From Zoogloea sp. 1C4 (GTDB lineage: Bacteria > Pseudomonadota > Gammaproteobacteria > Burkholderiales > Rhodocyclaceae): DNA of 64,000 nt. Of the stretch, positions 19,791 through 59,424 are shown piece by piece. A program made the translations under genes and the position numbers. Below the pieces are notes generated by a model, which was given only the letters and a program-made list of their open reading frames with translations, did not search any database and was not told where the DNA came from. Location of the stretch: the NCBI RefSeq assembly GCF_009469605.1, contig NZ_SSXU01000016.1, forward strand, positions 1 through 64,000, read 5' to 3'. Numbering within the stretch: position 1 is the first letter of the stretch; every line of letters starts with the position of its first letter.

Positions 19791-20882
19791 TCAGCCTCCG
19801 AGGGCCAGGGCGGCCAGCCAGCCGCCGGCAACCACGCCGGCCGGGAACAGCAGGCGCAGGCGCACCGGCAGGGGGCGGCTCTCGATGCCCCGGTAGAACA
19901 ACTCGCCACCGACGATGCTGATGCCCAGCGCCACCAGCATGCCGATCGCGTTGACCATCGGGTGGGTGGGGAAGAGGGTGATGAAGGTGGCGTTCACCAG
20001 CAGGCACAGGGGGAAGTGCACCAGGAACACCGAGTACGAGATACGCGCCAGACGGCTCACCGCGGCCGGCACCGGCATGGTGTAGAGGAAGCCGCTGCGA
20101 CCGGCGAGGCCCAGGAACAGCATCACCGCGGTAGCCACCGCAATGCGCGGGCGGAAATCCACCGCCAGCGAAGTGACCGCCACCACCGTCAGCGCGGCCA
20201 GCCACAGGCCCGAGCGGGGCTGGCGGATGGCCCAGCCGGCGAGGATGCCGAGGCCGAAGCTGCCGAAGAAGTAGAACGCGGTCTCGTCCCAGAAGGCGTC
20301 GCGGTTGAAGCCGAACAGCGCGGCGAGGGTCATCGCGGCGACAAGGGCCGGCGCCAGCGGACGCAGGGCGGCAACGCGGCCGGGCAGCCACAACAGGAGC
20401 ACCGCGAGGGCGAACAGCTGGAAGTCGATGGCCACGTACCACACGCCGGCCGACAGGGCTTCCTGGTCGAGGAGGTCGTGGAGCAGCAGCACGTGGGCGA
20501 GGAGCTGGCCCAGATCGGGCACGTCGGAGATCGAGCGGTGCACCATCCACACGCCGGCGAGCGCCGAACAGGCGATGGCCAGCAGCAGCGCGCCAGAGTA
20601 GGGCACCACGAGGCGGGTGTAGCGCTGGATCAGCAGGTTGAGCGGCGCGCCGGACAGGGCCGCGGGGCCGAACTTGCCGGCGAACAGGAAGCCGGACACC
20701 ACCAGGAAGACCTGCACGGCCATCCGGGCGTATTCGTCGAGGAAGCCGATGACGCCGGGCATCAGCGGCTTGGCGACGTCGGCCATGGGGCCGTAGAAGG
20801 CGAGGTGGTGCAGGACGATCAGCACGCAGGCGATGGCCTTGAGGGCATCGATGGCGGGCAGTCTTGAGGCGTCAGGGCGCAT
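19791..20882 (-). CDS. Acyltransferase 3 family membrane protein
   Basis: 363 aa with about ten hydrophobic segments. The N-terminal LPAIDALKAIACVLIVLHHL and RMAVQVFLVVSGFLFAGKF are the typical start of acyltransferase-3 (OafA/NodX-like) proteins that move acyl groups onto sugars or other surface molecules in the inner membrane. A later RISYSVFLVHFPL is also family-like. The acceptor cannot be named. It is a single gene; a TATAAT box (minus strand, 20984-20989) and a TGCTGCAGCGCAGCA palindrome (20952-20966) lie upstream. Confidence 0.82.
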   Translation of the reverse strand: MRPDASRLPAIDALKAIACVLIVLHHLAFYGPMADVAKPLMPGVIGFLDEYARMAVQVFLVVSGFLFAGKFGPAALSGAPLNLLIQRYTRLVVPYSGALLLAIACSALAGVWMVHRSISDVPDLGQLLAHVLLLHDLLDQEALSAGVWYVAIDFQLFALAVLLLWLPGRVAALRPLAPALVAAMTLAALFGFNRDAFWDETAFYFFGSFGLGILAGWAIRQPRSGLWLAALTVVAVTSLAVDFRPRIAVATAVMLFLGLAGRSGFLYTMPVPAAVSRLARISYSVFLVHFPLCLLVNATFITLFPTHPMVNAIGMLVALGISIVGGELFYRGIESRPLPVRLRLLFPAGVVAGGWLAALALGG

Positions 20883-20951
20883 GATTGTCGCGCGTTCTCC
20901 GTGGGCGGGAATCGGACGCTCGACGGGGGGCAGATGGCCGCTGGGGTGATT

Positions 20952-20966
20952 TGCTGCAGCGCAGCA
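20952..20966. promoter_or_regulatory. Palindromic operator (TGYTGCAGYGCAKCA family) and -10 box of the acyltransferase gene
   Basis: TGCTGCAGCGCAGCA is one of four related palindromes in the window (others at 23525-23539, 56640-56654 and 58092-58106). It lies just downstream of a minus-strand TATAAT at 20984-20989, so a bound protein could block initiation. The rest of 20883-21145 holds a perfect 10-bp inverted repeat TCCGGACGGA...TCCGTCCGGA (about 21000-21027) downstream of the kinase fusion gene; it has no T-run. Confidence 0.45.
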
Positions 20967-21145
20967 GTCGAGCGAAGCGGGCGATTATACGCGCGAGGCA
21001 TCCGGACGGACATGAAATCCGTCCGGAGAAGTATTTGAAAATGTTATGGATCGTGCCTGAAGTGAGTCGTGAACGGCATCGCGCCGGCCGCGAGCCGCAG
21101 GGCCCGGGGCCGGCGCGATGCCGGTTTCGGTGAGGCGAGGGCCGC

Positions 21146-23470
21146 TCAGTAGCGGTTCTGGATTTCCTCGATGTAGCCGAGCATCCCGGTGCGGATGTTG
21201 GCGGCGTTGCCTTCGTCGGTGTCGATGTGCATCGCCAGCCGATAGGCCGGATTCACCCGCACCACCACGTCGCCGAAGATCAGCTCGCGCTCGCCTTCGA
21301 CGCGCACCCGCACCACGTACTTGTCGCGCACCCGGAAGCGCAGGGCGTCTTCGGGCGACATGTGGATGTGGCGCTGGGCGCAGATCACGCCGCGCTCGAT
21401 GGTGGTGCTGCCGAACGGCCCTTCGAGGGTGATGCCCGGGGTGTTGGCGAGGTCGCCGGATTCGCGGATCGGCGGCTGGATGCCGACCTTGAACTGCTCG
21501 GTCATGGCGATCTCGACCTGGGTTTCCTTGCGGGTCGGGCCGAGGACGCGGACGTTGGCGATGCGGCCCTTGGGGCCGACGAGGTGCACCTTCTCGGCGC
21601 AGGCGAACTGGCCCGGCTGGGAGAGTTCGTGCTCCGGGGTGAGCTGGTGGCCGGGGCCGAACAGCTTGTCCACGTCGGCTTGCGAAAGGTGCACGTGGTG
21701 GGCGGAGATCTCGATGGGGATCGGCGCTTCGGCCTGATCTTCGCGCATGGCCACCGACAGCGCATTGCGCTCGATGGCGCGCAGGGCTTCCCAGGCCACC
21801 AGACGCTCGTCGTCGTTGGTGATGACGAGGATGGTGACCGGCGAATCGTCGGCCGAGATGATGGCGTAGTCGCCGACCCGGTCGAGGTTGCGGTTCTTTT
21901 CCTCGTCGAGGCGGATGCCCATGTAGCCAAGGCCCTGGCAGGCCAGGCTGCGCACCGCGGCGCTGGTCTCGCCCACGTCGCCGGTGAAGGCCAGCACGTC
22001 GATGCCGCCCATCGCCGCCACGTAGGCGCCGATGTTCTTGCGCACCTGGTAGCAGAAGGCCTTGTGGGCCAGCAGGGCGCGGTGGTGGCCGTCGTTGGCG
22101 GCGGCTTCGATGTCGTGGATGTCGCTGGAGATGCCCGAGATGCCCTTCAGGCCGCTGTTGGTGTTGATCATCGTCGACAGGTCGTCGGCGGAGAGCTTGT
22201 TGTGCTCCATCAGGTGGATCATCACCGCCGGGTCGATGCTGCCGGAGCGGCTGGGCATGATGAGGCCGTCGGTCGGCGTCATGCCCATGGTGGTGTCCAC
22301 CGAGCGGCCGTGGTCGATGGCGCACAGGGAGGCGCCGATGCCCAGGTGGCAGGAGACGATCTCCAGCTCGCCCAGCGGGCGGTTCAGTACCTCAGCGGCC
22401 TTCAGCGACACGTAGCGGTGGGAGCTGCCATGAAAGCCGTAGCGGCGGATGCCCTGCTGCTTGTAGAGCTCGTAGGGCAGGCCGTAGAGGTAGGCGTAGG
22501 GCGGCAGCGTCTGGTGGAAGGCAGTGTCGAACACGGCCACGTGGGGCACGCCGGGCAGCTGGCGCATGGCCTCGCGGATGCCTTCGACGTTCACCGGGTT
22601 GTGCAGCGGGGCGAACACCGACAGGGCCTCGATGTCGGCGATGACCGCCGGGGTGATCACCACCGAGCTGGCGAACTTGCTGCCGCCATGCACCACCCGG
22701 TGGCCGACGGCGGTGACGTCGTGGGGATGGAAGGCGAAGGCGTCGCCGAGCAGGCGGGTGGATTCCTCGATCACCCGGAACAGGTCGGTGAGCGGGAAGG
22801 GCGAGCGCTCGGCAGAGCGGACCTGGGTGCCCACGAACACGCGGACGCGCGAGATGGCCGGATCGGCGTTGTCGATGATGCCGTGGACGTCGGAGCCCAG
22901 ATCGTGGGTGTCGTAGATGCCGAAGTGGATCTGGCTGATGCCCACGTTGAGGGCCAGCACCTTGCCCGGGGAGTCGGTGTGCAGCGACAGGGAGTACGGG
23001 TCGTCGGCCTTGGCGGGCTGGCCCGGCTGGCTGTTGAGCATGTCGGTCGACAGGGTGCGCACCCGGTCGAGGAGCTTGTGCGACAGGTAGGCGACGGCCT
23101 TGGGGTTGGTGAGGATGTGCAGGTTGAACACATCCTGCGGAATCAGCAGCACGAAGCAGCGGTTGCCGGCGATCACGTCGGCGGCGATGCGGTCGCCGGT
23201 GAGGGTGGACATCACCCCGAACACGTCGCCCGGGCCGAGCTGGCTGATGACGGTGCGGGTGCCGGTGTTGTCGGTGACGGAGATCTCGGCGTGGCCGGTG
23301 ATCACGATGCCGATGTTGCGGGCCTCGTCGCCCGTCTCGAGCATCGCCTCGTTGCCTTCGTAGGTGGTCAGCCGGGACTGGCTGACGATGGTCTCGACCT
23401 TGTCGGCAGGGAAGCTGGCGAACAGGGGTACCTGTTCGAGGAAGAATTTCTTGAGGTCAACTTCGCTCAT
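21146..23470 (-). CDS. Cyclic-nucleotide-binding domain / acetate kinase-like / PduL phosphotransacylase fusion
   Basis: 774 aa with three parts. Residues ~12-145 are a cNMP-binding fold (GDVFGVMSTLTGDRIAADVIA, with the phosphate-binding Arg). Residues ~169-570 are an acetate kinase: GHRVVHGG at 256, VFDTAFHQT, RRYGFHGSSHRYV and SRSGSIDP are kept, but the phosphate loop reads LNVGISQIHF (usual LNCGSSSLKF) and the nucleotide motif HLGIG (usual HLGNG). Residues ~583-774 are a complete PduL phosphotransacylase with zinc ligands in HHVHLS, RHIHM and HIDTDE. One chain could convert acetyl-CoA or propionyl-CoA to acyl phosphate and then to acid, under nucleotide control. The start at 23470 is taken from the domain start. 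An operator-like palindrome lies upstream. Confidence 0.9.
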   Translation of the reverse strand: MSEVDLKKFFLEQVPLFASFPADKVETIVSQSRLTTYEGNEAMLETGDEARNIGIVITGHAEISVTDNTGTRTVISQLGPGDVFGVMSTLTGDRIAADVIAGNRCFVLLIPQDVFNLHILTNPKAVAYLSHKLLDRVRTLSTDMLNSQPGQPAKADDPYSLSLHTDSPGKVLALNVGISQIHFGIYDTHDLGSDVHGIIDNADPAISRVRVFVGTQVRSAERSPFPLTDLFRVIEESTRLLGDAFAFHPHDVTAVGHRVVHGGSKFASSVVITPAVIADIEALSVFAPLHNPVNVEGIREAMRQLPGVPHVAVFDTAFHQTLPPYAYLYGLPYELYKQQGIRRYGFHGSSHRYVSLKAAEVLNRPLGELEIVSCHLGIGASLCAIDHGRSVDTTMGMTPTDGLIMPSRSGSIDPAVMIHLMEHNKLSADDLSTMINTNSGLKGISGISSDIHDIEAAANDGHHRALLAHKAFCYQVRKNIGAYVAAMGGIDVLAFTGDVGETSAAVRSLACQGLGYMGIRLDEEKNRNLDRVGDYAIISADDSPVTILVITNDDERLVAWEALRAIERNALSVAMREDQAEAPIPIEISAHHVHLSQADVDKLFGPGHQLTPEHELSQPGQFACAEKVHLVGPKGRIANVRVLGPTRKETQVEIAMTEQFKVGIQPPIRESGDLANTPGITLEGPFGSTTIERGVICAQRHIHMSPEDALRFRVRDKYVVRVRVEGERELIFGDVVVRVNPAYRLAMHIDTDEGNAANIRTGMLGYIEEIQNRY

Positions 23471-23511: not shown

Positions 23512-23539
23512 AGCGTAGCACTTTTGTTGCAGTGCATCA
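23512..23539 (-). promoter_or_regulatory. Promoter and palindromic operator of the AckA-PduL fusion gene
   Basis: The minus strand shows an extended -10, TGCTACGCT (TACGCT at 23512-23517). About 17 bp upstream, at the -35 position, lies the palindrome TGTTGCAGTGCATCA (plus strand, 23525-23539), which belongs to the TGYTGCAGYGCAKCA family and overlaps a perfect GCAGTG-ATG-CACTGC repeat. No good -35 hexamer is present. The location suggests repression by a protein that also reads the small-RNA promoters. Confidence 0.45.
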
Positions 23540-23616
23540 CTGCGTAGCTTCCCTTATACGCCTCCGATGAGACATTTGTGCGTGAAGTAACGCCCGGGCA
23601 GGCCGCGCTGGCCCCG

Positions 23617-53965: not shown

Positions 53966-56458
53966 TCAGTCGAGCAGGCTGGGAAAGAATTCAGCGATTT
54001 CGGTGTAGGTCTTACCAAGAGCCTGCAGAAGGTCGATGTAGTTGTCGGTGACAAGCCGGCTGTTTGGGTGGTCAGCGCCGAGGCTCTTGAGCAAGATCGT
54101 CAGGGCGCGGCGCATCAGTGGTTCGGCATCGGCGAGGCGGTGGGTGGCCCTCAGCAGCTGGGCCAGGTTGTTGAGGTCGCGGGCGACCTTGGGATCATCC
54201 TTGCCTGAGCTGGTTTCATCGATTTCCAGCGCCCGGCGAATCAGCGGCTCAGCTTCCGTGAGGCGGTTGGTGACGTACAGCAGTCGGGCCAGGCTGTTGA
54301 GCCGGATGGCGACCTTTGGGGGATCTATGTGGAAGCTGGCTTCATCGATTTTCAGCGCCCGGCGCAACAGCAGTTCGGCTTCGGTAAAGCGGTTGGCGGC
54401 TTGCAGCAGTCCGGCAAGGTTGTTGAGCTGGATGGCGACTTCGGGGTGATCCTTGCCGAAGCGGGCTTCAACGATCAGCAACGCGCGGCACATCAGCGGT
54501 TTGGCTTCGGTGAGGCGATTGGTGTCCTGCAGTACTCGGGCCAGACTGTTGAGATCGCGGGCGACGTTGGGGTGATCCTTACCGAAGCGGGCTTCATTGA
54601 TCTCCAGCGCCCGGCGGATCAGCGGTTCGGCTTCGGCGGAGCGGGCTACTGCCAGTAGCAATAGGCCGACCTGATTCAACAGCCGGGCACTGGGGCCGTC
54701 GAGCCTGCTGTCCGCCGCATGGATGGCGGCGGCCTGGGCGTGGGGGGCGAGAGGGTAAATAACGGGCCAGTTGCACACGTCCTCCGGATCGCCGACGAAG
54801 GCGTCGTCGATCCAGCCCAGCGCCTCGCCAAGCGCGGGCTTTTCGGTGTCGTCGGCCTGCCCGTGGCGGGTGACGGCCTGGACGAGGCGATGCACAGCGA
54901 AGGCCGTGCCGTCGTCGGACCAGCTCGCCAGGGACAGGGCTTCCAGCTCGGCCAGGGCGTCGCGCAGGTGGGCGTCCTCGCCGGGGATGGGCACGTCCAG
55001 CAGGCTGGTGGGGATGGGGGCCGGGGCGAGCCAGGCGAGGCGCTGCAGCAGCCGGCGGGCGGCGGGCTGAAGCTGGTCGAAGCTGGTCTGCCAGGTGATG
55101 GCGACGCTCCTGGGGTATTGCATCAGGCGCGGGTCGTACCAGCCGAGCACCGTGGCCTGGCGGCTTCGCCACTGGTCGAGGTACTGGGCGAAGCCGAGGC
55201 GCAGTTTGGCGATGTAGGCGCCGGCTTGTTCCAGCGCCAGGGCGAGGTAGCCCAGCTCGTGGGCGAGGGTGGCGGCGCGGGCCGGGTCGTCGGGCTGCAC
55301 GGCGCGGCGGCCGGCGGTGCGCCGGAGCAGGAAATCGGCCGCGGCGGCGGGGGCGAGGACGTCCACCGCCACGGGCTGGATCGCGGCGCTCCAGTTGGGC
55401 AGGCGGCTGGTGATCAGCAGGTGGCCGCCGGAAAGGCGCGGGCACAGGGCTTCGACGGCCTGGGCGGCGGCTTCGTCGTCGGCGTTGTCGAGGATCAGCA
55501 GCCAGCCGGGGTGGTGGTTGAGCCAGGCGAGGGCGGCGTCTTTCTGGCGGCTTTCGTCGGGCTGATCTTTTTCGGGCAGGTTGAGCAGCACGGGGCCGCA
55601 CAGGGCGGCCAGGTTGCGGTCGATGGCCTGGGGGCTGTCGGCGCCGATCAGGAATAGGGCGTGGTAGCCGCCGCCCCGGCGCCAGGCGTATTCCAGCGCC
55701 AGCCGGGTCTTGCCGACGCCGCCCAGGCCGCTGAGGGCGACGCAGGTGGCGGGGTTTTCCTTGGCCTGAGGCGGAGTGCCGAGCAAGTCGGCGAGCCGGT
55801 CGAGCAGCCCGTCGCGCCCGATGAACAGCGGGCCGAGGCTGGCCTGGGGCAGATGCACCCGTCGGGTGATCAGCCCGGCGGCGACGAGGAGATCGAGCAG
55901 CCCCGAGCGCCACACTTCGGCGGCCAGGTGATCGGGGTTGCGGAAGCGGATGCCGGGGAAGCGTTCGACGCTGGCCAGCCGGGCGAGGTGGGTCTGCTGG
56001 GCGGCGATCTGTTCGGGCGTCGGGGCGTAGTCGGGGTCGCGGGGGGCGTCGGGTTCGGGCTCGGCGATGATGAGGCGCTTGCCGTGGTGGAGGGCCAGCC
56101 AGGCTTCCCATTGGGTGTAGGGCAGCGGTGGGCCGTCGGCTTCGAGGAAGGCAGCGACCGGCAGCTTGTCGGCGAAGTTGGGGTGGGCGCTGCGGATCGC
56201 CGCGACGGAGGGCGCCTGGGCCATCGCGCCGGTCATGTCGCCCACCAGATGGATCACCACGTCGCACTGGCGGATGTACTGGTCGAGCATGTCCAGCGTT
56301 TCGGTGCCGGTGGGGATGAAGTTTTCCTGAACCTTGACCGTGACGTTGGGGCGGTCGAGGTGATGGCGCAGCGCGTCGCGGTAGCTGCAGAACTCCGCGC
56401 TGACGGTGGATAGGAAGACCTTCACCTCGCTCCTCGCCTCACCCCTCGCCTCGCTCAT
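53966..56458 (-). CDS. DUF4062-NB-ARC-TPR protein (STAND NTPase)
   Basis: 830 aa. Residues ~12-95 resemble DUF4062 (KVFLSTVSAEFCSYRDAL...DMLDQYIRQCDVVIHLVG), a TIR-like fold. The NTPase follows with P-loop GLGGVGKT at about 244-251, Walker B LLILDNADD at about 321-328, and LLITSR. The C-terminal ~220 residues hold five 42-residue kinesin-light-chain-type TPR units ending in RFGKDHPN-like turns, plus a degenerate sixth. STAND proteins of this build act as ligand-triggered switches, several in antiphage defence. The ATG at 56458 (AAGAGGGCG upstream) is preferred over 56482. A predicted small RNA with terminator lies between the nearest promoter and this gene. GC content is like the neighbours. 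Confidence 0.85.
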   Translation of the reverse strand: MSEARGEARSEVKVFLSTVSAEFCSYRDALRHHLDRPNVTVKVQENFIPTGTETLDMLDQYIRQCDVVIHLVGDMTGAMAQAPSVAAIRSAHPNFADKLPVAAFLEADGPPLPYTQWEAWLALHHGKRLIIAEPEPDAPRDPDYAPTPEQIAAQQTHLARLASVERFPGIRFRNPDHLAAEVWRSGLLDLLVAAGLITRRVHLPQASLGPLFIGRDGLLDRLADLLGTPPQAKENPATCVALSGLGGVGKTRLALEYAWRRGGGYHALFLIGADSPQAIDRNLAALCGPVLLNLPEKDQPDESRQKDAALAWLNHHPGWLLILDNADDEAAAQAVEALCPRLSGGHLLITSRLPNWSAAIQPVAVDVLAPAAAADFLLRRTAGRRAVQPDDPARAATLAHELGYLALALEQAGAYIAKLRLGFAQYLDQWRSRQATVLGWYDPRLMQYPRSVAITWQTSFDQLQPAARRLLQRLAWLAPAPIPTSLLDVPIPGEDAHLRDALAELEALSLASWSDDGTAFAVHRLVQAVTRHGQADDTEKPALGEALGWIDDAFVGDPEDVCNWPVIYPLAPHAQAAAIHAADSRLDGPSARLLNQVGLLLLAVARSAEAEPLIRRALEINEARFGKDHPNVARDLNSLARVLQDTNRLTEAKPLMCRALLIVEARFGKDHPEVAIQLNNLAGLLQAANRFTEAELLLRRALKIDEASFHIDPPKVAIRLNSLARLLYVTNRLTEAEPLIRRALEIDETSSGKDDPKVARDLNNLAQLLRATHRLADAEPLMRRALTILLKSLGADHPNSRLVTDNYIDLLQALGKTYTEIAEFFPSLLD

Positions 56459-56546
56459 GGGCGCCCTCTTTGCGCTATTCATCCGGGGTGAGGATACACC
56501 GGCGGCGGGGCCTGCCGGCCGGCGGTTTGCGCCGGAGGCGGCGCAC

Positions 56547-56617
56547 CAAAAGAAAAACCCGAGGGCGGGGGTGCCACTCGGGTTAAATCCACACCAAAGG
56601 AGGAGGGTGGAGGAGAC
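56547..56617 (-). ncRNA. Predicted small RNA 1 with anti-Shine-Dalgarno hairpin loop
   Basis: A minus-strand promoter TTGCAG (56647-56652) - 17 bp - TATATT (56624-56629) predicts a start at G56617. The ~71-nt RNA begins GUCUCCUCC. Its first hairpin pairs UCCACC with GGUGUGGA and exposes CUCCUCCUUU, the same bases as the 16S rRNA tail. An AACCCGAG/CUCGGGUU hairpin followed by UUUCUUUU terminates it. A copy with one base difference over 78 bp is at 57999-58069, and the promoter spacing is conserved although the spacer is not. Short frames here lack support as proteins. No gene lies in 56459-56826 besides this. Confidence 0.7.
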
Positions 56618-56639
56618 GATTCAAATATAGATGAGGAAG

Positions 56640-56654
56640 TGCTGCGCTGCAACA
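56640..56654. promoter_or_regulatory. Palindromic operator over the -35 box of small RNA 1
   Basis: TGCTGCGCTGCAACA (reverse: TGTTGCAGCGCAGCA) overlaps the predicted -35 hexamer. Identical to the site at 58092-58106 and related to those at 20952 and 23525. TGC-rich palindromes of this kind are reported for PHB-linked PhaR-type repressors; the protein here is not known. Confidence 0.5.
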
Positions 56655-56826
56655 ATATTCGTGTGTCCCCGTGTAACCGTTTTCACAGGGCGGCCGGTTG
56701 CGTGGGTGGGTAGTCCTACGGGGATGTCGGCCCCGGCCGACAGGTGCTTGCGCCAGTGGCTGATCGAGATGCTCCTCGGGACGCGGGAAGATGACTCCGT
56801 GTTCACTACCCGATAAGGAGACAGCC

Positions 56827-57807
56827 ATGAACCAGAGAATGATCGAAACCCAGCATCTGCCCCATCCGGTTGACGGCAAGGTCACGACGCCGATGGCGCC
56901 AAGCGCTGACGACAAATCCACTGCAACCAAGATCGGCCTGGTGGGCGGGGCTGCCTCGGGCGTTGCCACCGGCGTGGCGGTTGGCGCGGCAACGGCGGGC
57001 CCGGTGGGTGCGGCGGTTGGCGGGGTGATCGGCGCCGTGGCCGGCGCTGCCGGCGGCAAGGCGCTGGTCGATACGATCGGGCCTGCGGCCGATGACGATG
57101 TGTATTGGGCCGACGCCCACGTTCGGGAGCCTTACTATCGCCCGGGCACGCCCTATGAATACTACCGCCCTGCTTTCGAGCATGGCTGGCTGGGGGTGGA
57201 GCGCTACCCCGGCACGTATGTGGAGGCTGAATCCCGCCTCGCCGAAGACTGGCTGCGCTCGCCGGGCCGCAACATGGCGTGGGACGACGCACGTCCGGCC
57301 GTGCAGGCTGCCTGGGAGCGGGCTGCGTCGCGCCGCACCGCGCGTGCCGTCGAAGGGGAGCCCGTCGACCCCGACGAGCTGATCGATACCCTCAACACCC
57401 TGCTGGTGATGAGCCGCGACGGGGAAGAAGGTTTCCGTCATGCGGCGGCGCACGCGAAGATGCCGGCGATTTCGGCGGTGATGCAGCGTCGCGCTGGCGA
57501 TTGCGCATCGGCAGTCATCGAACTCGACAACGAGATCGAACGGCTCGGCGGACGTCCGGCAGAGCATGGTTCGGTGCAGGGCGCGCTCATGCGTGGCTGG
57601 ACCAGCCTGAAGACGGTTTTCAGCTCCGAGGACGACAAGATCGTGCTGGACGCGTGCGTCGCGGCGGAGGATGAGGCGCTGCAGACCTTCCGGGATGCGC
57701 TCGGCAAGCCGATGCCGGCTTCGGTGCGCGCCCTGGTGGAGCGCCAGCTGGAAGGCGTGCGCCGCAACCTGGCGGAGATGGTGCGCCTGCGCGACGGGCT
57801 CGGTTGA
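56827..57807 (+). CDS. PA2169-family (DUF2383) four-helix-bundle protein with N-terminal glycine zipper
   Basis: 326 aa. Residues ~35-85 are a Gly/Ala-rich zipper (GLVGGAASGVATGVAVGAATAGPVGAAVGG) that may insert into a membrane. A Tyr/Pro-rich linker follows (REPYYRPGTPYEYYRPAFEHG). The last ~140 residues (DTLNTLLVMSRDGEEGFRHAA...GRPAEHGSVQGALMRGW...VAAEDEAL) match the DUF2383/PA2169 ferritin-like bundle, often found in stress-induced proteins. ATAAGGAGACAGCC precedes the ATG at 56827. It stands alone between the two small RNA genes. The combination with a glycine zipper is uncommon; function unknown. Confidence 0.8.
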   Translation: MNQRMIETQHLPHPVDGKVTTPMAPSADDKSTATKIGLVGGAASGVATGVAVGAATAGPVGAAVGGVIGAVAGAAGGKALVDTIGPAADDDVYWADAHVREPYYRPGTPYEYYRPAFEHGWLGVERYPGTYVEAESRLAEDWLRSPGRNMAWDDARPAVQAAWERAASRRTARAVEGEPVDPDELIDTLNTLLVMSRDGEEGFRHAAAHAKMPAISAVMQRRAGDCASAVIELDNEIERLGGRPAEHGSVQGALMRGWTSLKTVFSSEDDKIVLDACVAAEDEALQTFRDALGKPMPASVRALVERQLEGVRRNLAEMVRLRDGLG

Positions 57808-57998
57808 GTCGGCAGCGGGCGGGGGCGCTAAGGCCATCAACGACCCTGCCGGATGCTGCCCTTTGAGGCTTGCGGGCCCGTCACCGTTGTCGGTGGCGGG
57901 CCCGTGTGTTCACCAGCCAGGTGGCCGGATCTGGCGGAAGGCATCGCAGCGCTCGGCGTGAGCTTGCCCGCCGGTGGTTTGCACGACAGACGGCGCAC

Positions 57999-58069
57999 CA
58001 AAAGAAAAACCCGAGGGCGGGGGCGCCACTCGGGTTAAATCCACACCAAAGGAGGAGGGTGGAGGAGAC
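57999..58069 (-). ncRNA. Predicted small RNA 2 with anti-Shine-Dalgarno hairpin loop
   Basis: Paralogue of small RNA 1. Promoter TTGCAG (58099-58104) - 17 bp - TATTCT (58076-58081), predicted start G58069, then the same GUCUCCUCC 5' end, CUCCUCCUUU loop and AACCCGAG/CUCGGGUU-UUUCUUU terminator. The transcribed part is 77/78 identical to copy 1, while the promoter spacer differs, as expected for a duplicated, selected RNA gene. It lies downstream of the degS-like gene and converges with the PA2169-type gene. The rest of 57808-58191 holds only the plus-strand terminator at 58147. Confidence 0.7.
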
Positions 58070-58091
58070 AGCTGCAGAATAGCGCTGCAGA

Positions 58092-58106
58092 TGCTGCGCT
58101 GCAACA
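58092..58106. promoter_or_regulatory. Palindromic operator over the -35 box of small RNA 2
   Basis: TGCTGCGCTGCAACA, identical to 56640-56654 and in the same position relative to the small RNA promoter. It suggests co-regulation of the two RNAs. Confidence 0.5.
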
Positions 58107-58146
58107 TTCGAGTTGTATCGGGTTGTTATTCCGTCACGGAAGCGCT

Positions 58147-58191: not shown

Positions 58192-59355
<1,164 letters not shown>

Positions 59356-59424
59356 CGTAGAATCGGCCACCGGCGCCAGCGGGCGCCTTCAAATTGCGGA
59401 ATGCTTGAAAAAGGAATGACGGCC

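Follow-up and report, generated by a model that had tools for sequence, protein, structure and literature searches.

Predicted PhaR operators at the promoters of paired RF02278 small RNAs in Zoogloea sp. 1C4

Analysis of a 64,000-nt stretch of Zoogloea sp. 1C4 DNA (positions 1 to 64,000 of contig NZ_SSXU01000016.1, in the following called the window) revealed that two nearly identical small RNA genes on its minus strand are new members of RF02278, a family that already bears the name "Betaproteobacteria toxic small RNA", with both copies above the gathering cut-off in an Rfam covariance search (58.2 and 55.4 bits vs 50). The first-pass annotation of this DNA had taken the pair as possibly unnamed, which the family match corrects, and its view of the two as paralogous anti-Shine-Dalgarno RNAs, most likely trans-acting regulators of translation, was judged right. 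Judging from the sequence, the new element appears to be a predicted PhaR switch and not the RNA family itself: each -35 box is overlapped by a candidate PhaR operator, and a PhaR-type operator is locked onto the promoter in most of the relatives sampled from the same bacterial family. We consider it likely that granules of polyhydroxybutyrate (PHB) titrate PhaR away from this predicted operator, whereupon the RNAs would be made and translation of catabolic and transport genes would be dampened.

The RNA pair and its family

The following features were assigned at the two copies, with Site 1 and Site 2 denoting the pairing sites of the Bordetella pertussis RNA S17S (PMC11722255).

56549..56618, minus strand: small RNA copy 1, RF02278, two hairpins (55.4 bits, model positions 1-64 of 64; fold z -5.6)
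58001..58070, minus strand: small RNA copy 2, RF02278, two hairpins (58.2 bits, model positions 1-64 of 64; fold z -5.5)
56608..56617, minus strand: copy 1, 5' single-stranded anti-Shine-Dalgarno stretch GUCUCCUCCA, corresponding to Site 1 of S17S (sequence and fold)
56596..56605, minus strand: copy 1, hairpin 1 loop region CUCCUCCUUU, corresponding to Site 2 of S17S (sequence and fold)
58060..58069, minus strand: copy 2, 5' anti-Shine-Dalgarno stretch (sequence and fold)
58048..58057, minus strand: copy 2, hairpin 1 loop region CUCCUCCUUU (sequence and fold)
56549..56584, minus strand: copy 1, terminator hairpin and U tail (fold)
58001..58036, minus strand: copy 2, terminator hairpin and U tail (fold)
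56624..56652, minus strand: copy 1 promoter, TTGCAG (56652-56647), 17 nt, TATATT (56629-56624) (sequence)
58076..58104, minus strand: copy 2 promoter, TTGCAG (58104-58099), 17 nt, TATTCT (58081-58076) (sequence)
56639..56655, minus strand: copy 1, predicted PhaR operator overlapping the -35 box (16 of 17 positions of consensus YTKNTGCRNYGCANMAR)
58091..58107, minus strand: copy 2, predicted PhaR operator overlapping the -35 box (15 of 17 positions of consensus YTKNTGCRNYGCANMAR)

The underlying minus-strand repeats (56540-56617 and 57992-58069) are 78 bp long each and, as had been noted at first reading and was confirmed by sequence comparison, identical at 77 of 78 positions. A repeat search revealed that the duplication is larger than these blocks, extending over 145 nt at 84% identity (56510-56654 vs 57962-58106), and because it includes the promoters, the likeness of the two promoters is not independent evidence of conservation. 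Each block corresponds to a 70-nt RNA composed of an unpaired 5' end, a first hairpin (hairpin 1) and a terminator hairpin with U tail. Folding bore out both hairpins, with predicted energies of -27.7 and -29.1 kcal/mol (z -5.6 for copy 1 and -5.5 for copy 2) that none of 200 shuffled sequences equalled. The loop of hairpin 1 contains CCUCCUUU, which we take to be the 3' end of 16S rRNA.

As originally read from the letters, both promoters combine a TTGCAG box, a 17-nt spacer and a second box (TATATT in copy 1, TATTCT in copy 2) upstream of a presumed G start. The second box lies 6 nt before this G (56617 in copy 1, 58069 in copy 2). A generic sigma-70 scan found neither promoter at 9 of 12 matches; counted by eye, about 8 of 12 positions match. 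The earlier statement that the promoter is conserved while the spacers differ holds for the boxes and their spacing, but the spacers are not free: a 13-nt stretch common to both promoters, TTGCAGCGCAGCA, continues past the -35 box into the spacer and is part of a palindrome. This palindrome is the candidate operator, scored against the consensus that is used for the Ralstonia eutropha PhaR operator in passages of PMC12849132.

The host genome contains four RF02278 copies above the cut-off, two in the window and one each at C64:418355 and C54:58662, and all four carry a PhaR-type site (15, 15, 15 and 16 of 17 positions). Conservation in relatives, which the first-pass annotation had set beforehand as one test of its reading, was indeed found, with a match in 113 of 121 genomes of the host's family (above the cut-off in 90) and in 141 of 220 genomes of an order-level sample (above the cut-off in 82), and no RF02278 match in any of 14 control genomes. 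Hairpin 1 is conserved and partly covarying. Among 85 distinct hairpin 1 sequences (from 326) that keep UCCA...UGGA, the first pair inside this fixed frame is paired in 79 (shuffled mean 49.8, maximum 60) and varies in concert between CG, TG, AT, TA, GC and GT, and the second is paired in 54 (shuffled mean 39.6, maximum 49); the third, paired in 39 vs a shuffled mean of 35.8 and maximum of 45, does not differ from chance. In a 30-sequence alignment the hairpin 1 pairs are mostly invariant, with two-sided changes found mainly in the terminator.

Anti-Shine-Dalgarno loops, as carried by the window RNAs, are also found in ar14/NfeR1 and CcsR ('cuckoo') of Alphaproteobacteria, and the first-pass annotation had seen in the pair a betaproteobacterial analogue of the cuckoo/CcsR RNAs. 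Actual membership in the alphaproteobacterial cuckoo/CcsR or ar14 group, for which the similar CUCCUCC loops and a weak ar14 alignment (20.9 and 18.6 bits) could be cited, is highly improbable, as both scores, obtained with the ar14 model only, fall far below its cut-off of 58.8, while that of RF02278 is exceeded; as members of this named family, the two are not an unnamed analogue of the cuckoo RNAs.

RF02278, whose founding paper is Kimelman 2012 according to passages of papers citing it, includes ncS03, ncS05, ncS27 and ncS62 of Burkholderia cenocepacia (PMC4603805, PMC5688073) and four tsRNAs of Herbaspirillum seropedicae (PMC7011215), which the window RNAs resemble over the full model in sequence and structure, sharing two hairpins, CU-rich single strands and the multicopy arrangement. 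The passages on B. cenocepacia report a common upstream motif for three of the four copies, as well as increases of ncS03, ncS05 and ncS27 by 8.0, 6.9 and 4.3 fold in glucose medium; these three RNAs also rise in biofilm and starvation, so the response is not storage-specific. No regulator is named in these passages and PMC5688073 states it to be unknown, whereas here the element is identified as a PhaR-type operator. For S17S, passages of PMC11722255 describe that the 5' end and the first loop pair at ribosome-binding sites and thereby repress targets, that deletion of S17 raised 91-92 genes, that the promoter reads TTGCAT-17-TACTAT, and that the 5' region, which contains the two pairing sites, is conserved through Betaproteobacteria; its authors postulate an unnamed repressor. 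The host's C64 copy (the primary copy) lies near coq7, as S17 does, in the order coq7, OsmC, RNA, argC, erpA, and a longer transcript is the probable source of its RNA, which is the published case for S17 and ncS27. Unlike S17, the window copies lie away from coq7; they apparently have no leader that RNase E would process, their transcripts seeming to begin at the mature 5' end itself.

The C54 copy and a copy in a Zoogloea metagenome-assembled genome (L389) have 42 identical bases directly 5' of the RNA. At locus L069 (G044:C1:3303500-3311000), about 3.5 kb hold five RF02278 copies, and a PhaR-type site stands at -38 in four of these; L377 and L386 are similar to this locus. Four matches each are found on an Aromatoleum and an Azoarcus contig. 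Neither of two genomes of one genus (G052 and G105, g52) has PhaR; one of them shows a weak RF02278 match and the other none, a possible joint loss.

The PhaR-type site and PhaR across relatives

Within the host's family, 111 of 132 RNA copies from 89 genomes carry a site matching at least 15 of 17 consensus positions within 130 nt upstream, the copies having been sampled from the best matches listed, with the RNA missed at 4 of 129 loci (L008, L029, L131, L175). For the same 132 copies, 200 permutations of the consensus gave a mean of 2.7 (maximum 21) and 50 shuffles of the upstream DNA a mean of 1.9 (maximum 5), and the density in the flanks (37 sites in 207,833 bp around 70 loci, or 0.0203 per upstream interval) leads to an expectation of about 2.7 copies. 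The sites upstream of these RNAs fall into two clusters, one of 34 sites at -34 to -40, in copies that apparently start at the mature 5' end as in the window, and one of 83 sites at -81 to -120, mostly in copies with a longer leader. A site was also present at -290 to -160 in 50 of the 132 copies; this region is a poor control because primary copies carry a further cluster, mostly at -231 to -275 (48 sites), and flank density, permutation and shuffles were therefore used instead. In the host genome, a divergent OsmC-family gene (next to L059:1597-2019) lies upstream of the primary copy and may share control from such a site at -231 to -275.

When named genomes were scanned with a pattern for site plus RNA, at least 119 stretches showed the arrangement; among the matches listed (80 contigs) it occurs in Burkholderia, Paraburkholderia, Caballeronia, Trinickia, Azoarcus, Aromatoleum, Thauera, Zoogloea, Dechloromonas and others. 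Four positions left free by the search pattern agree with the consensus (T2 94%, R8 94%, M15 95%, A16 98%) in the 86 distinct matches on these contigs, many of which come from close relatives, so that the percentages are not independent counts. In one genome of the comparison (G255, locus L200) the promoter TTGCAT-17-TACTAT has exactly the boxes published for S17, with the -35 box inside a 16-of-17 site, and a second (G216, L197) combines TTGCAT-17-TATGAT with the same site as L200.

A single PhaR is encoded in the host genome, with both Pfam domains and a TIGR01848 equivalog score of 166.1 bits vs a cut-off of 109.45. All four strong phasin genes of this genome carry a site of 15-17 of 17 positions 70-166 nt before the start region; upstream of its four weaker PF09361 phasin matches no PhaR-type site was found. 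Exact 17-of-17 sites number 17 in the host genome, vs 0 for the reversed pattern. Among the 15 of them that were inspected, neighbouring genes include those for two phasins, a MaoC-phosphotransacetylase and an enoyl-CoA hydratase, as well as, judged by eye, lpxC, and several of the sites fall within frames. The only exact site of the window (20951-20967) precedes an acyltransferase-3 gene (19791-20882, minus strand) by about 70 nt. A 16-of-17 site at 23524-23540 stands just upstream of a gene for a 774-aa protein (21146-23470, minus strand) in which a cyclic-nucleotide-binding domain is fused to acetate kinase and a PduL-type phosphotransacylase, and acetyl-CoA flow may come under PhaR control as well.

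In the order-level sample, a site within 150 nt was present at 38 of 66 copies in PhaR-bearing genomes vs 3 of 37 copies in PhaR-less ones, meaning those without a PhaR match in the genome search (Fisher p 3e-7), and counted by genome in 36 of 48 vs 3 of 30. Three of 106 rows (L201, L204, L211) were dropped from this count since the RNA did not lie where expected, the earlier figures being 39 of 69 and 3 of 37; L238, cut by a contig end, and L212 and L217, from the host's own family, are excluded too. Further upstream, at -330 to -150, a site occurred at 12 of 69 copies in PhaR-bearing genomes and at 0 of 37 in PhaR-less ones. Two of the three PhaR-less exceptions that bear a site, G218 and G240, are 87 and 85% complete and have PhaR-bearing relatives in their families. 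PhaR-less genomes mostly show another promoter, ATTAGANNAT at -42 to -58, which is found at 29 of their 37 copies (e.g. L219-L253) vs 1 of 66 in PhaR-bearing genomes and often takes the form of an inverted repeat TTAG-N5-7-CTAA (17 of 37, 0 of 66 and, in the family set, 0 of 132 copies).

A predicted storage-linked circuit and its alternatives

Zoogloea is a classical storage-polymer producer. In the circuit we propose, PhaR would occupy the palindrome over the -35 box as long as no polymer is stored and thereby keep RNA polymerase off. Under carbon excess with PHB granules, it would move to the surface of the granules, as has been published for a phasin gene. The RNA would then be made and folded, probably held by Hfq, and its two CU-rich stretches could pair with a set of mRNAs for transport and catabolism at their GGAGG-type ribosome-binding sites. 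In this way a small RNA would let the storage granule slow both uptake and catabolism. For Cupriavidus necator, passages of PMC12849132 describe PhaR as repressing phaP1 through sites close to its -35 and -10 boxes, and as being recruited to the granule as PHB accumulates.

As a check on phasin targets, GTGGAGGAGAC, the complement of the RNA 5' end, was located 10 times in the host genome (reversed control 1), 4 of these occurrences being the RNA loci themselves. One 11-nt occurrence (L307, G000:C118:38058-38068) lies 57 nt before a phasin ATG and 9 nt after its PhaR-type site, an anecdote only. A pattern joining the site with GTGGAGGAGAC gave 13 matches in 10 of the 121 family genomes, vs 3 for the reversed control and about 6-8 by a uniform-base estimate.

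The first-pass annotation had alternatively offered a ribosome mimic, by which the RNA would compete with the 16S rRNA tail and act as a global, toxin-like brake on translation. Apart from the shared octamer CCUCCUUU in the loop there is little in favour of this idea, which we regard as quite improbable. Overexpression of ncS27 is reported to attenuate growth of B. cenocepacia, and the family is called toxic for E. coli in published passages, yet S17S is described as not toxic in E. coli BL21 and the S17 deletion as raising a limited set of genes and not all of them (PMC11722255). Moreover, the octamer is present in only 22 of the 85 distinct hairpins, while CCUCC is kept in 66. The mimic is less likely because the S17 deletion affects a limited set and the octamer is not conserved.

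Several observations weigh against control by PhaR. No RNA copy of the host fits the consensus at 17 of 17 positions or is among the 17 exact sites of its genome, and with 16 places of at least 15 of 17 in the 64-kb window a single site is modest evidence. In the family set, a site reaching the 15-of-17 threshold is missing from 21 of 132 copies, including within the window's own genus two of the five copies of G094 (L066, L067) and one in G036 (L063, 14 of 17), and among the 86 distinct matches of the named-genome scan the free positions Y1, K3 and R17 agree with the consensus in only 60%, 35% and 59%. The host phaR gene has no site nearby, though autoregulation is ascribed to the PhaR of C. 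necator. Family-level association with PhaR depends on the threshold, with p 0.0013 at 15 of 17, 0.008 at 16 of 17 and only 0.13 at 14 of 17; in the order sample 12 of 48 PhaR-bearing genomes are without the site, and genome G012 keeps it with no detectable PhaR. With the joint pattern of site and GTGGAGGAGAC, a conserved target could not be shown across the 121 genomes. Finally, G206 of family f43 bears PhaR and lacks the PhaR site, being by its sequence the single PhaR-bearing case with the ATTAGANNAT promoter, and the PhaR-less genomes belong partly to one lineage. PhaR status and lineage are therefore confounded in part, and more weight rests on enrichment and position than on the association.

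In a rival explanation the RNAs are ordinary members of RF02278, their palindrome serves another regulator or is a mere fixed variant of the -35 box, and PhaR is uninvolved. TTGC is usable as the start of a -35 box, site-bearing and site-less promoters partly follow lineage, and the site of G012 exists without detectable PhaR. We nevertheless find this explanation unlikely, as the palindrome exceeds the -35 box and meets the PhaR consensus at four of seven positions outside the search pattern, the phasin genes of the host carry the same site upstream, and in many primary copies the site lies, by eye, before the -35 box and not on it.

Taking PhaR control as the preferred reading, we think it reasonably probable that PhaR is the ancestral controller of RF02278/S17/ncS27 in Betaproteobacteria, where granules would titrate PhaR and release a multicopy anti-Shine-Dalgarno RNA that brakes uptake and catabolism, that Alphaproteobacteria would use the same circuit with another RNA (MmgR), and that PhaR-less lineages would rely on a different, often dyad promoter (ATTAGA..AT). 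If this is true, PhaR becomes a candidate for the repressor postulated by the S17 authors. A precedent is MmgR of Sinorhizobium meliloti (ar8 family), described in passages of PMC8401924 and PMC12542648 as a 77-nt Hfq-dependent RNA that is repressed by PhaR (AniA), which binds the mmgR promoter in vitro, and that is tied to carbon storage. The likeness lies in control only: MmgR belongs to another RNA family (homology compared by Rfam scan only) and occurs in another class, and its targets are phasins, those reported for RF02278 RNAs lying in transport and metabolism.

A link between PhaR and RF02278 was not found among the top-ranked entries of the open-access literature searched, and PMC10987360 makes no mention of PHB or PhaR. 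Control of these RNAs is called unknown for B. cenocepacia in passages of PMC5688073 and ascribed to an unnamed repressor in those of the S17 preprint, and a concrete operator with a repressor candidate makes the question directly testable. Should the prediction be true, many Betaproteobacteria would couple carbon storage, a process relevant to bioplastics and activated sludge, to a brake that acts at the level of translation, with MmgR as the alphaproteobacterial parallel.

Genomic surroundings of the pair

A blastn search of positions 56540-56660 gave no match in plasmid records and one 34-nt match in phage records (E 0.1). Between the two RNA copies sits a gene for a PA2169/DUF2383 four-helix protein (56830-57807, plus strand). 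Downstream of copy 1 lies a gene for a DUF4062-ATPase-TPR protein (53966-56482, minus strand), and upstream of copy 2 one for a Do-family serine protease (58192-59370, minus strand).

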